A stretch of 35,923 nt of DNA, taken from NCBI GenBank assembly GCA_007133465.1, contig SLMP01000073.1, positions 1 through 35,923 of the forward strand, read 5' to 3'. Of this stretch, positions 15,291-32,493 are shown one piece after another (position 1 is the first letter of the stretch; each line of letters opens with the position of its first letter). The DNA comes from Nitriliruptoraceae bacterium (lineage in GTDB: Bacteria; Actinomycetota; Nitriliruptoria; Nitriliruptorales; Nitriliruptoraceae). The notes below the pieces were generated by a model. That model was not told the origin of the DNA and ran no database searches. It worked only from the letters and a program-made list of their open reading frames with translations. The translations under genes and the position numbers were made by a program.

Positions 15291-16053
15291 GCCGCAGCAT
15301 CAGCCCGGCGACCGCGGCCAGCAGGCCGCCGAACAGCCGGGTGAGCAGGTCGGGCGCCAGCCCGAGCGCGACACTGGCACCCAGGGAGCCACCGACCAGT
15401 CCGGTGGCTCCCATCCAGCTGCCCAGCGCCCAGTCGGTGTAGCCACGACGCTGGTGCGCGACCGCCCCCGCCAGCGCCGTGGGAGCGATCACGGCGAGCG
15501 AGGTGCCTTCCGCGGTGTGCTGGTCGAGCCCGAAGCCGAGGGCGAGGACCGGGACGAGCAGGACCCCGCCCCCGAGACCGAGCAGCGACGAGAGCACGCC
15601 GACGGTCACGCCGACGCCGAGGTAGGCGACCAGCCGCCAGGCATCGAGCGCCGGCGCCGCGGCGGTCACCGCGGCGGCCGACGGGCCGCCGAGCAGCAGG
15701 CGCGCGGCGATCACCACCAGCAACAGGGCGAAGGCCCGTCGCAGCCGGGCCTCGGGGACACGGGGCAGCAGGCGCGCGCCGACCTGCGCGCCCGCGATCC
15801 CGCCGACGGCCAGGACCGCGGCGGCCGAGAAGAGCACCGCGCCGTCGAACGCGAAGCGCACCGTGCCGGACACGGCCGTGAACAGGATCGCGACCAGCGA
15901 GGTGGCGTGGGCCACGTGTTGGGGCCGGCGGAGCGCGAGGACCAGCAGCGGCACCAGCAGCACGCCGCCGCCGACCCCGAACAGCCCGGCGGCGAGGCTC
16001 GCGACGAACCCGCCTCCCACGGCGATCGCGAGCTCACGCCGATCGCCAGCCAC
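15238..16053 (-). CDS. TauE/SafE-family membrane permease
   Basis: 271 residues from GTG 16053, chosen because GGGGAGG lies 4 bases upstream; the open frame further upstream is not protein-like. It has seven or eight hydrophobic helices in two similar halves, each opening with a Gly-rich motif (GLFGVGGGVLLVPLL and SLLGLGGGVLLVPVL), typical of TauE/SafE sulfite or organosulfonate exporters. Cargo cannot be assigned from sequence alone and no sulfur genes are adjacent. The basic C-terminal tail overlaps the convergent LigA-like gene by 53 bases. It is divergent from the DUF4015 lipoprotein gene. Confidence 0.9.
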   Translation of the reverse strand: MAGDRRELAIAVGGGFVASLAAGLFGVGGGVLLVPLLVLALRRPQHVAHATSLVAILFTAVSGTVRFAFDGAVLFSAAAVLAVGGIAGAQVGARLLPRVPEARLRRAFALLLVVIAARLLLGGPSAAAVTAAAPALDAWRLVAYLGVGVTVGVLSSLLGLGGGVLLVPVLALGFGLDQHTAEGTSLAVIAPTALAGAVAHQRRGYTDWALGSWMGATGLVGGSLGASVALGLAPDLLTRLFGGLLAAVAGLMLRPRRVRRRAAPRRGSRGR

Positions 16054-26447: not shown

Positions 26448-27710
26448 GTGAGGGCGCCCGCGACACGGTCCATCGACGAGGCGGGCCGGTTGCGGCGCGC
26501 CCGCGCTGCGGTGTCGGCGCTCTTCCTCGTCAACGCGGTCCTCTTCGCGAACCTGGTCCCCCGACTGCCGGAGGTCAAGGACGCCCTCGGGCTGAGCAAC
26601 GCCGCCCTCGGCACGGCCCTCGCGGGCATGCCGGCGGGCGCGCTCGTGGCGGGCTTGTTCGCGCCGGCGGTCATCGGTCGGTTCGGTTCGGCCAAGGTCG
26701 CGTCCCTGGGGCTCGTCGGCATGGGCGCGGTACTGGTCGGCGTCCCCGCGGCAGGCACCTGGGCCGGGTTCGCCGCGCTGCTGTTCGTCCTCGGAGCGCT
26801 GGACAGCATCGTCGACGTCGCACAGAACGCCCACGGGTTCCGGGTGCAACGGCGGTACGGCCGCTCCATCATCAACGCCTTCCACGGCCTGTGGAGCGCG
26901 GGCGCCGTCCTGGGCGGGATCCTCGGGTCGATCGCGGCCGGGCTGGCACTCCCCCTGCGTTGGCACCTCACCGCCGCCGCGGTGGTCTTCAGCGGGCTGG
27001 CGCTGGTGAGCCTTCGTTTCCTGCTCCCCGGCCCCGAGGACACGGAACGGACCACGGCGACCGCGAACGAGGGCCGCAGCGGCGCGGTGGGGGGTCCCGA
27101 TGGCGACGACGTGGCGCTCCTGCGGCGCAACGGCACGGTCGCCGCGCCCCGCCACACCATCCTGCTGTTGGCGGCGCTGGGCGTGCTCGCCATGGCGGGC
27201 TCGTTCGTCGAGGACGCCGGGGCCTCCTGGGGCGCGCTGTTCCTGCGCAACGAGGTGGGCGCGCGGGCGGTCTTCGCCGGTGCGGCCTTCGTCGCCCTGC
27301 AGAGCGCGATGACCGTCGGGCGCCTGACGGGCGATCGCTTCGTCGACCGCTACGGACAGCGGCGGATCGCACGCGTCGGTGGGGGCCTCGTCGCTGCCGG
27401 CATCGCCCTGACCCTCGCCGTGCCCTCCGTGGTCACCACGGTCGCCGGTTTCGGCGCCGCGGGACTCGGCGTGGCCACGCTCGTCCCCGCGGTCATGCAC
27501 ACCGCCGACGAGCTCCCCGGCCTCCGACCCGGCGTCGGACTCACGGTGGTCAGTTGGTTGTTGCGCGTCGGCTTCCTCGTCTCCCCGCCGCTGATCGGGG
27601 TGCTCGCCGACCTCACCAGCCTGCGGGCCGCCCTCACCGTCGTCGTCGCCGCCGGCGTGACGATCATGGTGCTCGGACGGATCCTCGACGGCCAGGACGG
27701 AGCGAGCTGA
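26448..27710 (+). CDS. major facilitator superfamily transporter
   Basis: 420 residues from GTG 26448; the SD is weak and the exact start uncertain. Around twelve hydrophobic helices split by a charged central loop (about 195-235) give the normal MFS plan. NLVPRLPEVKDALGLSNAALG near the first loop and GRLTGDRFVDRYGQRRIAR after helix 8 are the conserved MFS loop motifs of the YbjJ-like group. Substrate unknown; probably an efflux or sugar-type carrier. No regulator is adjacent. Convergent with a small charged protein whose stop is 16 bases away. Confidence 0.9.
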   Translation: MRAPATRSIDEAGRLRRARAAVSALFLVNAVLFANLVPRLPEVKDALGLSNAALGTALAGMPAGALVAGLFAPAVIGRFGSAKVASLGLVGMGAVLVGVPAAGTWAGFAALLFVLGALDSIVDVAQNAHGFRVQRRYGRSIINAFHGLWSAGAVLGGILGSIAAGLALPLRWHLTAAAVVFSGLALVSLRFLLPGPEDTERTTATANEGRSGAVGGPDGDDVALLRRNGTVAAPRHTILLLAALGVLAMAGSFVEDAGASWGALFLRNEVGARAVFAGAAFVALQSAMTVGRLTGDRFVDRYGQRRIARVGGGLVAAGIALTLAVPSVVTTVAGFGAAGLGVATLVPAVMHTADELPGLRPGVGLTVVSWLLRVGFLVSPPLIGVLADLTSLRAALTVVVAAGVTIMVLGRILDGQDGAS

Positions 27711-27726: not shown

Positions 27727-27957
27727 TCAGCGCCACCGGCTGCGCTGCAACCACGAGGCGAACGCTTGCGCGGTGTGCGATCGGTCCGCCGCGGCCCACG
27801 CCGCCGCGAACTCCGCGCGATCGTCACCGACGACGCCTTCGATCGAGCGACCGTCCGCCTGCGCCTCCCGCAGGTGCGTTCGCAGCTCCTCGGCCTTCCG
27901 TCGGCGCGCCCGGCGCGGCATACCCGCCCGGTACCACTCGTTGTTGCCCTGCCGCAC
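27727..27957 (-). CDS. small charged hypothetical protein
   Basis: 76 residues from GTG 27957; ATG 27921 would give 64. Neither has a strong SD. The core (RARRRKAEELRTHLREAQAD, then GVVGDDRAEFAAAWAAAD and SWLQRSRW) reads as two amphipathic helices with alternating Arg/Lys and Glu/Asp. Composition is protein-like in this frame but no family is recognised. Perhaps a small RNA- or membrane-associated protein; function unknown. Confidence 0.55.
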   Translation of the reverse strand: MRQGNNEWYRAGMPRRARRRKAEELRTHLREAQADGRSIEGVVGDDRAEFAAAWAAADRSHTAQAFASWLQRSRWR

Positions 27958-28086: not shown

Positions 28087-28092
28087 TACGCT
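28087..28092 (+). promoter_or_regulatory. candidate -10 element TACGCT for the leuS leader
   Basis: TACGCT fits TAnnnT and ends 9 bases before the ATG of the Leu-rich leader frame at 28102. If used, the transcript would start at about 28097-28100, making the leader peptide leaderless or nearly so. No clear -35 hexamer is seen. Confidence 0.4.
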
Positions 28093-28101
28093 GCCAGGGC
28101 G

Positions 28102-28176
28102 ATGATGCTGCTGCCGACCGCTGACCTCCTCGAGCTCCTCGGTGCGACCCGGGAGCCGGTCGCGGTGCTGCGCTAG
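28102..28176 (+). CDS. putative leucine-rich leader peptide of leuS
   Basis: A 24-codon open frame beginning ATG ATG CTG CTG and containing seven leucines, five-codon core CTC CTC GAG CTC CTC (codons 9-13). It ends with TAG 28174-28176, 16 bases before a perfect GC palindrome and about 100 bases before leuS. AGGG lies 5 bases before the second ATG. The last tandem Leu codons fall in the 5' arm of a hairpin (28134-28142 with 28149-28156, 8 bp, one bulge), the geometry expected of ribosome-mediated attenuation. High Leu content in a GC-rich reading frame can arise by chance, so this is a candidate, not an established gene. Confidence 0.5.
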   Translation: MMLLPTADLLELLGATREPVAVLR

Positions 28177-28192
28177 CCACCTCACGCGAGAT

Positions 28193-28216
28193 CGAGCCCC
28201 GGGATCCCGGGGCTCG
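28193..28216 (+). terminator. attenuator or terminator hairpin in the leuS leader
   Basis: A perfect 24-base palindrome (arms CGAGCCCCGGGA and its complement) followed by TTCGGGTTT. It lies between the Leu-rich frame and the leuS ribosome site. Segment 28131-28138 (CGAGCTCC), within the Leu codons, resembles its 5' arm and could pair with its 3' arm (28209-28216), and CCCGGG at 28148-28153 could pair with its 5' arm, so alternative folds exist. Confidence 0.6.
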
Positions 28217-28220
28217 TTCG

Positions 28221-28255
28221 GGTTTCCGGGCCGGGAAGGGAGCCGGGAGGGAACC
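28221..28255 (+). promoter_or_regulatory. hairpin able to mask the ribosome site before leuS
   Basis: GGTTTCC (28221-28227) can pair with GGGAACC (28249-28255), 7 bp with one G-T wobble, enclosing a G-rich loop. The 3' arm includes part of the GGGAGGG site that serves the ATG at 28258. This could give translational control in addition to any attenuation. Confidence 0.4.
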
Positions 28256-28257
28256 CC

Positions 28258-28278
28258 ATGAGGACGGTGACGACATGA
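28258..28278 (+). CDS. six-codon upstream open frame overlapping the leuS start
   Basis: ATG 28258 has the best SD in the region (GGGAGG, 7 bases upstream) and encodes MRTVTT, ending in a TGA (28276-28278) that overlaps the leuS ATG at 28275. The leuS start itself has only AGGA 10 bases upstream. Terminating ribosomes could reinitiate directly on leuS, so the frame may act as a translational coupling device. Confidence 0.4.
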   Translation: MRTVTT

Positions 28279-31040
28279 TGGCGACCGGCGGCATGCCCCG
28301 ATGGCGCTACGACGCCCGGCTCGCGGCGAGCATCGAGTCGCACTGGCAGGCGTGGTGGGAACGTCACGACACGTTCGCGACCGCCAACCCGACGACGGAA
28401 GCGAGCGGGTCGTCCGACCTCGGTGCGCCGCTGTACGTGCTGGACATGTTCCCCTACCCGTCGGGTGACGCGCTGCACGTGGGACACCCGTTGGGCTACA
28501 TCGCGACGGATGTGCACGCCCGTTTCCAGCGGATGGGCGGACGCCACGTGCTGCACCCGTTTGGGTTCGATGCGTTCGGGCTGCCGGCGGAGCAGTACGC
28601 GGTGGAGACCGGCCAGCATCCGGCCGTGACGACGGCCGACAACATCGCCACGATGCGGTCACAGCTGCGTGCCCTCGGGCTCGGCCACGACCCCTACCGG
28701 ACGGTCGTGACCTCGGATCCGGGCTACTACCGGTGGACGCAGTGGATCTTCCTCGAGCTGTTCAACGCCTGGTTCGACCCGGACACACGGCGCGCTCGTC
28801 CCATCCGCGAGCTCGAGACGCAGTTGGCCTCGGGGCAGCGGGCGCCGGTCGACGCCACCGCGAACCCCGACGCTCGACCGTGGCAGGAGCTCGGGACGGT
28901 CGCGCGTCGCCGGGTCGTGGATGGCTGGCGGCTGGCGTACCTGGCCGAGTCGCCGGTGAACTGGTGTCCGGCGTTGGGCACGGTGCTGGCCAACGAGGAG
29001 GTGACCAACGAGGGCCGCAGCGAACGGGGCAACCATCCGGTCCACCGGCGGCGGCTGCGTCAGTGGATGCTGCGGATCACCGCCTACGCCGACCGGTTGC
29101 TGGAGGACCTGGAGCTGCTGGACTGGCCCGAGCCGATCGCTCGGATGCAGCGCAACTGGATCGGCCGCCGTTCGGGCGCACGCATCCGGTTCCCCGTGGA
29201 CGGCGCGGACGGCTCGATCGAGGTGTTCACCACGCGGCCGGAGACGCTGTTCGGCGCGACGTTCGTGGCGCTGTCCGTGGACCACGCGGCCCTCGACGAG
29301 CTCGGCCTGCCCCGAGACGGTGTCGGATCCGTCGCCGTGCGTGAGGGCGGCGTGGCCACCGGGGGCTTCGTGCGCCATCCCGCCACCGGCGGGCGCCTAC
29401 CGGTCTACGTTGCCGACCACGTGCTGGCGGAGGCGGGGACCGGTGCGGTGATGGGGGTGCCGGCACACGACGAACGCGACTGGCGGTTCGCCCAGGCCCA
29501 CGGCCTGCCGGTGCGTCCGGTCGTCACCCGGCCCCCCGACCACGATCCACACGCCGCCTCCACCGGGCAGGGGACGATGGTGGCGTCCCGCGGCGGCGGG
29601 CTGGAACTGGACGGGCTGCACTCGTCGCAGGCCCGACAGGTCGTCATCGACTGGCTCGGATCGTCCGGGCACGGTGGTGGCGCGACCAGCTACCGGCTGC
29701 GGGACTGGCTGTTCTCCCGACAGCGGTACTGGGGCGAGCCCTTCCCGATCGTGTTCGACGACCACGACCTGCCTGTCGCGCTGCCTGCTGACCTGCTGCC
29801 GGTCGTGCTCCCGGACCTCGACGACTTCCGGCCCCGCCCGGTCGACATCGACCAGCCGCCGACCCCACCGCTGGCTCGCGCTGCCAGCTGGGTCGAGGTC
29901 GACCTCGACCTCGGCGACGGGCTGCGGACCTACCGGCGTGAGACCAACACGATGCCGCAGTGGGCCGGCTCGTGCTGGTACCACCTGCGCTACCTCGACC
30001 CGGCGAACGCCGAACGGCTGGTCGATCCCGACGTCGAGCGCTACTGGATGGCCGGGACCGATCGCGACCGCACCGGCGGGGTCGACCTGTACGTCGGCGG
30101 GGTCGAGCACGCCGTGCTGCACCTGCTCTACGCCCGGTTCTGGCACAAGGTCCTGTACGACCTCGGTCACGTGTCCACCCCTGAGCCGTTCCAGCGGCTG
30201 GTCAACAACGGCTACGTCCAGGCCCCGGCCTACCTCGACGACCGCGGCAGCTACGTCCCCGCCGACGAGGTGAGCGTCGACGCGGACGGCACCGCGTTCC
30301 ACCGGGGACGCCCCGTCACCACCCGCATGGGCAAGATGGGCAAGAGCCTCAAGAACGCCGTGCGGCCCGACCAGATCATCGACACCTACGGTGCCGACAC
30401 GCTGCGTCTGTACGAGATGGCCTCCGGGCCGCTCGAGGCCGACCGACCCTGGGAGCCCCACGACATCGTCGGGATGCACCGGTTCCTGCAACGGGTGTGG
30501 CGCAACCTCGTCGACGAACACCACGGGACACCCATCGTCACCGACGACCCGCCTCCTGACCGGCTCCGGCGAGCGTTGCACACCACCATCGACGAGGTCG
30601 GCCGCGAGCTGACCGAGCTGAGGTGCAACACGGCGATCGCGCACCTGACCGCCCTGAACAACGCACTGACCGCCGTGGTCCGCGAGCGCGGGACGTGTCC
30701 CCGCGAGATCGCCGAGCCGCTCGTCCTCATGCTCGCGCCGTTCGCCCCCCACGTCGCCGAGGAGCTGTGGGCACGGCTCGGGCACCCGCCGAGCATCGCC
30801 GACGTCGGGTTCCCCACGGCCGACCACCGGTGGGTCCGACCCACCGACGTCGAGCTGCCGGTCCAGGTCGACGGCAGGACCCGCGGATCGGTGACCATCC
30901 CGGCCGACGCCGACGAACACGAGGTCGTCCGAGTCGTGCGGGAGGACGAACGGATCGGCGACCGGCTCGCCGAAGCGACCGTTCGGCGCGTGATATACGT
31001 CCCCGGAAGGATCATCAACTTCGTCACGAGTGGAAGGTGA
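28275..31040 (+). CDS. leuS: leucine--tRNA ligase
   Basis: 921 residues from ATG 28275 (ATGs at 28278 and 28293 are alternatives). Class I synthetase signatures: DMFPYPSGDALHVGH with the HIGH-type HVGH at 68-71, WDAFGLPAE-like FDAFGLPAEQYA, CP1 editing domain with TTRPETLFGATF and AVMGVPAHDERD, and the KMSKS-type MGKMGKSLKN near residues 685-694. Anticodon-binding and C-terminal domains follow (LPVQVDGRTRGSVTIPADA). It charges tRNA-Leu and edits misacylated tRNA in the cytoplasm. It is preceded by an unusual leader with a Leu-rich frame and hairpins, suggesting expression responds to leucine or charged tRNA-Leu. Length is close to the usual 900-970. Confidence 0.97.
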   Translation: MMATGGMPRWRYDARLAASIESHWQAWWERHDTFATANPTTEASGSSDLGAPLYVLDMFPYPSGDALHVGHPLGYIATDVHARFQRMGGRHVLHPFGFDAFGLPAEQYAVETGQHPAVTTADNIATMRSQLRALGLGHDPYRTVVTSDPGYYRWTQWIFLELFNAWFDPDTRRARPIRELETQLASGQRAPVDATANPDARPWQELGTVARRRVVDGWRLAYLAESPVNWCPALGTVLANEEVTNEGRSERGNHPVHRRRLRQWMLRITAYADRLLEDLELLDWPEPIARMQRNWIGRRSGARIRFPVDGADGSIEVFTTRPETLFGATFVALSVDHAALDELGLPRDGVGSVAVREGGVATGGFVRHPATGGRLPVYVADHVLAEAGTGAVMGVPAHDERDWRFAQAHGLPVRPVVTRPPDHDPHAASTGQGTMVASRGGGLELDGLHSSQARQVVIDWLGSSGHGGGATSYRLRDWLFSRQRYWGEPFPIVFDDHDLPVALPADLLPVVLPDLDDFRPRPVDIDQPPTPPLARAASWVEVDLDLGDGLRTYRRETNTMPQWAGSCWYHLRYLDPANAERLVDPDVERYWMAGTDRDRTGGVDLYVGGVEHAVLHLLYARFWHKVLYDLGHVSTPEPFQRLVNNGYVQAPAYLDDRGSYVPADEVSVDADGTAFHRGRPVTTRMGKMGKSLKNAVRPDQIIDTYGADTLRLYEMASGPLEADRPWEPHDIVGMHRFLQRVWRNLVDEHHGTPIVTDDPPPDRLRRALHTTIDEVGRELTELRCNTAIAHLTALNNALTAVVRERGTCPREIAEPLVLMLAPFAPHVAEELWARLGHPPSIADVGFPTADHRWVRPTDVELPVQVDGRTRGSVTIPADADEHEVVRVVREDERIGDRLAEATVRRVIYVPGRIINFVTSGR

Positions 31041-32461: not shown

Positions 32462-32493
32462 ACGGGGGGTGCTCCCGCGGAAGCACCCCCCGT
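32462..32493 (-). terminator. strong terminator after nrdJ
   Basis: ACGGGGGGTGCT (32462-32473) and AGCACCCCCCGT (32482-32493) form a perfect 12-bp stem with an 8-base loop, 15 bases past the nrdJ stop at 32508 on the minus strand. Confidence 0.8.

Follow-up and report, generated by a model that had tools for sequence, protein, structure and literature searches.

In the classical attenuators of the enteric trp, leu and phe operons, the leader RNA can adopt a set of 1:2, 2:3 and 3:4 pairings, and the regulatory codons lie in region 1. Attenuation of leuS, the leucyl-tRNA synthetase (LeuRS) gene, was predicted in Streptomyces coelicolor and S. avermitilis (Seliverstov 2005; PMC1262725), and leuL2 of S. 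lividans, MRAVRLLLSEPR, was mapped by RNA-seq in 2021 (PMC8079986). An earlier sequence-only reading of the DNA analyzed here had suggested that attenuation on leuS would be new; these two reports, and the wide occurrence of leuL elements described below, show otherwise. Two further systems involve an additional synthetase: the second, indolmycin-resistant TrpRS1 gene of S. coelicolor is under an attenuator (Vecchione and Sello 2010, as cited in PMC4787780), and AgnB2 is described as the self-immunity LeuRS of Agrobacterium radiobacter K84 (PMC5059758).

The window, a stretch of 35,923 nt with ~73% GC, belongs to a 2.77-Mb actinobacterial draft genome and carries a leuS gene, here leuS2, behind an intergenic space of 353 nt (from the minus-strand gene at 27727-27921 to the leuS2 start at 28275). 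The features of this region are as follows.

27727-27921, minus strand: small conserved gene, divergent from leuS2, with homologues present in 7 further genomes; bounds the intergenic region on its upstream side
28087-28092, plus strand: candidate -10 box TACGCT, 9 nt upstream of the leader ATG
28102-28176, plus strand: leader open reading frame MMLLPTADLLELLGATREPVAVLR followed by a stop codon; ATG at 28102, 24 codons, 7 of them Leu
28126-28140, plus strand: putative regulatory codon cluster CTC CTC GAG CTC CTC, codons 9-13
28134-28156, plus strand: hairpin 1:2, 28134-28142 with 28149-28156, holding Leu codons 12-13; 8 bp, predicted fold -12.0 kcal/mol
28148-28158, plus strand: region 2 of the putative antiterminator, CCCGGGAGCCG, able to pair with 28193-28203
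28160-28189, plus strand: weak hairpin around the leader stop codon, -9.0 kcal/mol, ending 3 nt before the terminator-like hairpin
28193-28216, plus strand: perfect 24-nt palindrome CGAGCCCCGGGATCCCGGGGCTCG, terminator-like hairpin 3:4; 10 bp, loop of 4, -21.8 kcal/mol
28258-28278, plus strand: tiny frame MRTVTT behind the SD-like stretch GGGAGGGA, its stop overlapping the leuS2 start
28275-31040, plus strand: leuS2, second leucyl-tRNA synthetase of actinomycete type, 921 aa; HVGH, KMGKS and editing motifs intact

The sequence and coordinates of the sequence-only reading proved correct base for base, including the 24-codon frame with seven Leu codons, the TACGCT 9 nt before it, and the lack of a T-run after the palindrome. 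The minus-strand gene at 27727-27921 encodes 64 aa, with homologues 39-51% identical and scattered over the phylum; the longer frame scanned there gave no Pfam match. At the other end of the region, the stop codon of the MRTVTT frame overlaps two ATGs of leuS2, and GGGAGGGA is a strong SD-like stretch whereas leuS2's own SD is weak. Translational coupling from this frame to leuS2 is possible, judging from the sequence.

leuS2 encodes a complete LeuRS, and the genome carries two complete leuS genes of different lineages. The native copy, leuS1, lies on contig C147, is 74% identical over the compared stretch to the leuS of a family member, and has no Leu-rich leader before it. The family members examined hold only native-type leuS, on which ground conservation of the leader within the family was rejected. 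Contamination of the contig was likewise rejected, by the identity of nrdJ, beside leuS2, to its family counterparts (mostly 78-87%). Since nrdJ resembles those of the family and the leuS2 type is missing from it, the contig is part of this genome, and leuS2 is apparently imported. A quick tree places leuS2 on a long branch, in a group (SH-aLRT 99) with Thermomonosporaceae and an unclassified actinobacterium; the Thermomonosporaceae leuS genes of this nearest group carry leuL attenuators.

All rarity statistics given here for the leader, box, palindrome and pairings are post hoc. When the intergenic region is shuffled with its dinucleotides preserved, a Leu cluster as dense as that of the leader frame arises in 0.03-0.3% of shuffles. 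Across 260 kb of this genome, six of the 1826 short ORFs hold five or more Leu, with four or more of these inside a run of five codons, and the leader frame is the only one of the six with a perfect stem of at least 10 bp after its stop. All its Leu codons are CTC or CTG, both common; CTT is absent. A TANNNT motif lies 4-10 nt upstream of only 0.5% of ATGs in this genome. We infer that TACGCT is the -10 box of a promoter, which would set the transcript start ~0-3 nt before the leader ATG and make the message near-leaderless. No sigma-70 consensus pair or -35 match was found for this putative promoter. An alternative start at GTG 28081, seven codons longer, was dropped, there being no -10 box at the right distance.

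The leader can form a complete set of mutually exclusive 1:2, 2:3 and 3:4 helices, with the candidate regulatory Leu codons in region 1. The hairpin at 28134-28142/28149-28156, the pairing of 28131-28138 with 28209-28216, and the perfect 24-base palindrome were all present as previously described. The helix between 28148-28153 and the palindrome's 5' arm also exists but had been understated: it extends to 28148-28158/28193-28203 and comprises 10 bp with one bulged A per strand (duplex -18.7 kcal/mol). Taken singly, hairpin 1:2 is not unusual against shuffles (P 0.16), and the 2:3 pairing is modestly so (P ~0.04). The palindrome starts 16 nt after the leader stop and is the longest perfect palindrome in the window; a perfect stem of at least 10 bp occurs in 0.4% of 80-nt windows of this genome. 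A repeat or mobile element was rejected as its origin, since no second copy was found elsewhere in the genome. A T-box or known riboswitch was rejected as well, there being no Rfam match in the window.

Directly 3' of the palindrome lies TTCGGGTTT, with no U-run. Perfect intergenic GC stems of at least 10 bp in this genome are mostly found within ~110 nt after gene stops, and none has a clear T-run. Their position suggests that such gene-end stems act as U-less terminators in this genome. Because gene-end GC hairpins here are usually U-less, the lack of a T-run says little against termination at 28193-28216. In the window itself, perfect GC stems of 11-17 bp without a T-run lie just past gene stops at 2319-2356, 15384-15412 and 32462-32493.

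The alternative folds raised in the sequence-only reading were computed: stalls at codons 9-12 favor 2:3 in RNA ending at 28203-28209, and at equilibrium the terminator always wins. With its A site on codon 9, 10 or 12, a ribosome with a footprint of ~13 nt would extend to ~28138-28147, and would cover region 1 wholly or mostly while leaving region 2 open. In computed folding of RNA ending at 28203-28209, where 2:3 dominates, this helix forms at ~1.0 with the ribosome stalled at codons 9-12, at 0.2-0.7 with a stall at codon 13, and at 0 for a ribosome that has reached the stop codon. After region 4 has been made in full, 3:4 is the favored helix at every ribosome position; without a ribosome, 2:3 also beats 1:2 until region 4 appears. 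Hence the choice between folds must be kinetic and would be made during synthesis. For classical attenuators, a decision during RNA synthesis is the accepted view. Equilibrium folding with a masked ribosome was set aside as a switching test; it is uninformative, since known leuL attenuators show no consistent switch in it either.

Collectively, we consider the element to be probably an independent, classical-type, ribosome-mediated leucine attenuator on an auxiliary leuS2. The co-occurrence before leuS of a Leu-dense frame, a leaderless-type -10 box and a strong hairpin, each rare in this genome, favors this reading. So do the complete pairing set, the position of the hairpin away from gene 3' ends, the usual lack of T-runs in gene-end hairpins here, the precedents of leuL and TrpRS1, the leuL attenuators in the nearest group of the tree, and the absence of a Leu leader before leuS1. 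Leader attenuation before leuS, as the sequence-only reading proposed, is still the best interpretation and has fuller pairings than first described, although that reading missed that leuS2 is a second copy. RNA polymerase would start at ~28099-28102, and a ribosome would translate the near-leaderless, Leu-rich frame. With Leu-tRNA well charged, the ribosome would run to the stop codon and cover region 2 (28148-28158), the hairpin at 28193-28216 would form, and transcription would stop despite the lack of a U-run. When charged Leu-tRNA is scarce, whether from leucine starvation or from inhibition or overloading of the native LeuRS, the ribosome would halt at codons 9-13 and cover region 1; the free region 2 would then pair with the hairpin's 5' arm while synthesis of the 3' arm is under way, and polymerase would read on into leuS2. 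Upstream of the nearest LeuRS relatives (60-65% identical at best), leuL carriers apart, no comparable leader was found in which conservation or covariation could be judged, and this counts against the attenuator. So do the terminator's advantage at equilibrium, the missing U-run, the modest P of 2:3, the use of common Leu codons, the -10 spacing of 9 nt and the lack of a -35 match.

The leuL elements themselves form a family. Many were found upstream of actinomycete leuS, and we aligned 17 of them, from four named families and further genomes. The alignment shows TANNNT 6-7 nt before the ATG, peptides of mostly 10-12 aa ending LLxxP[RC], and an invariant CTT as the last Leu codon of the run (CTT makes up 1% of Leu codons in the window's genes). 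The stop-codon hairpin, GCCGYGCUGA/AGCRCGGC, is stacked on the terminator, and in six sequences one of its pairs is U-A instead of C-G, a compensatory change; the terminator is CCCCTC/GAGGGG and mostly U-tailed. Its 5' arm has no competing pairing partner, so the leuL mechanism is not the textbook antiterminator. A covariance model was built from the 17 aligned elements, and members outside the model score 31-91 bits. We noted leuL in five families, Micromonosporaceae, Pseudonocardiaceae, Thermomonosporaceae, Streptomycetaceae and, by the covariance model, Dermabacteraceae. Within the class to which the window belongs, the model also matched in four genomes, all from a single genus, directly before leuS of a lineage other than the actinomycete one; the leuL peptides there are MAAHLLLIWPR, MAAALLLSWPR, MAAALLLSPPR and MATTLLLTQPR.

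Ahead of leuS, the window element has, like leuL, a putatively leaderless short Leu frame behind TANNNT, then a hairpin by the stop codon, then a GC terminator. It differs in length (24 codons against mostly 10-12 aa), in -10 spacing (9 nt against 6-7 nt), in a stop-codon hairpin (28160-28189) that is different and weaker, and in lacking both CTT and a U-run. The LL-x-x-P-[RC]-stop ending with CTT as the last Leu codon of the run is found in leuL and not in the window, while the 5' arm of the window's terminator has a pairing partner, which that of leuL lacks. On the plus strand of 28087-28222 the covariance model matched nothing, even in an unfiltered search. This non-match, together with the lack of a competing partner in leuL, indicates that the window element is not a leuL member, although it would work like a leucine attenuator.

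A kinship with leuL by descent was nevertheless considered, in which leuS2 brought a leuL attenuator along from its actinomycete donor, and this attenuator then decayed or was remodelled. The grouping of leuS2 with leuL-carrying Thermomonosporaceae genes speaks for it, as do the frame ends (GTGCTGCGCTAG in the window, GAGCCGCGCTGA in leuL) and the stop-codon hairpin that abuts the terminator in both. We regard this degenerate origin as improbable, given the silent covariance model, the absence of CTT, the other length and terminator, and the presence of an antiterminator that leuL lacks.

Two other explanations assign the leader no role. The hairpin may be an ordinary terminator or insulator against read-through into leuS2, for instance from the plus-strand MFS gene that ends at 27710, ~480 nt upstream, or from spurious starts; the Leu frame would then be coincidental and leuS2 would have its own promoter downstream. 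Strong U-less GC hairpins are common at gene ends in this genome, and conservation of the frame could not be shown. However, no gene has its 3' end at 28193-28216, and this hairpin lies far from any plus-strand gene end, the next upstream gene being the divergent, conserved one, which is convergent with the MFS gene and sits between it and leuS2. As this explanation also leaves the Leu cluster and the leaderless -10 box as unexplained coincidences, we think it unlikely. There is little to recommend the palindrome as a DNA operator for a dimeric repressor or activator of leuS2, with translation playing no role, even though its two-fold symmetry is perfect and its position ~70 nt before the gene is fitting. 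Besides being single in the genome, it has no regulator gene seen adjoining it, it would sit downstream of the apparent promoter, and its alternative pairings with the leader would have arisen by chance.

Returning to the leucine attenuator, a more specific proposal is that an imported LeuRS is kept silent under its own attenuator, evolved independently of leuL, and is switched on only when the native LeuRS fails (e.g. when poisoned by an inhibitor); we offer this as a tentative and rather doubtful extension. If true, it would be the second case, after Streptomyces TrpRS1, of a spare synthetase gene that senses housekeeping failure via uncharged tRNA, and it would suggest that LeuRS inhibitors occur in the environment. 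The spread of leuL before different LeuRS lineages matters on its own as a side result: leuS attenuation, described only for Streptomyces in the literature found, extends across several families of actinomycetes and into a second class of the phylum.

Among known systems, a literature search found no second bacterial LeuRS under attenuation. AgnB2, as far as its source describes it, is similarly a second LeuRS beside a housekeeping LeuRS but is antibiotic-linked, whereas no antibiotic cluster was seen beside leuS2. To our knowledge, attenuation has not been claimed for AgnB2. The auxiliary role suggested for leuS2 rests, by analogy, on the two leuS genes and the TrpRS1 precedent. TrpRS1, as presented in the citing article, is likewise a second synthetase gene, controlled by a leader that senses how well its own tRNA is charged; it differs in responding to Trp rather than Leu, and antibiotic resistance, shown for TrpRS1, is only a guess for leuS2. 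With the enteric attenuators the window element shares the pairing set with regulatory codons in region 1, and it differs from them in the missing U-run after the terminator and in its near-leaderless frame. Attenuation of leuS is thus known, and the putative attenuator in the window is built differently from the Streptomyces type.
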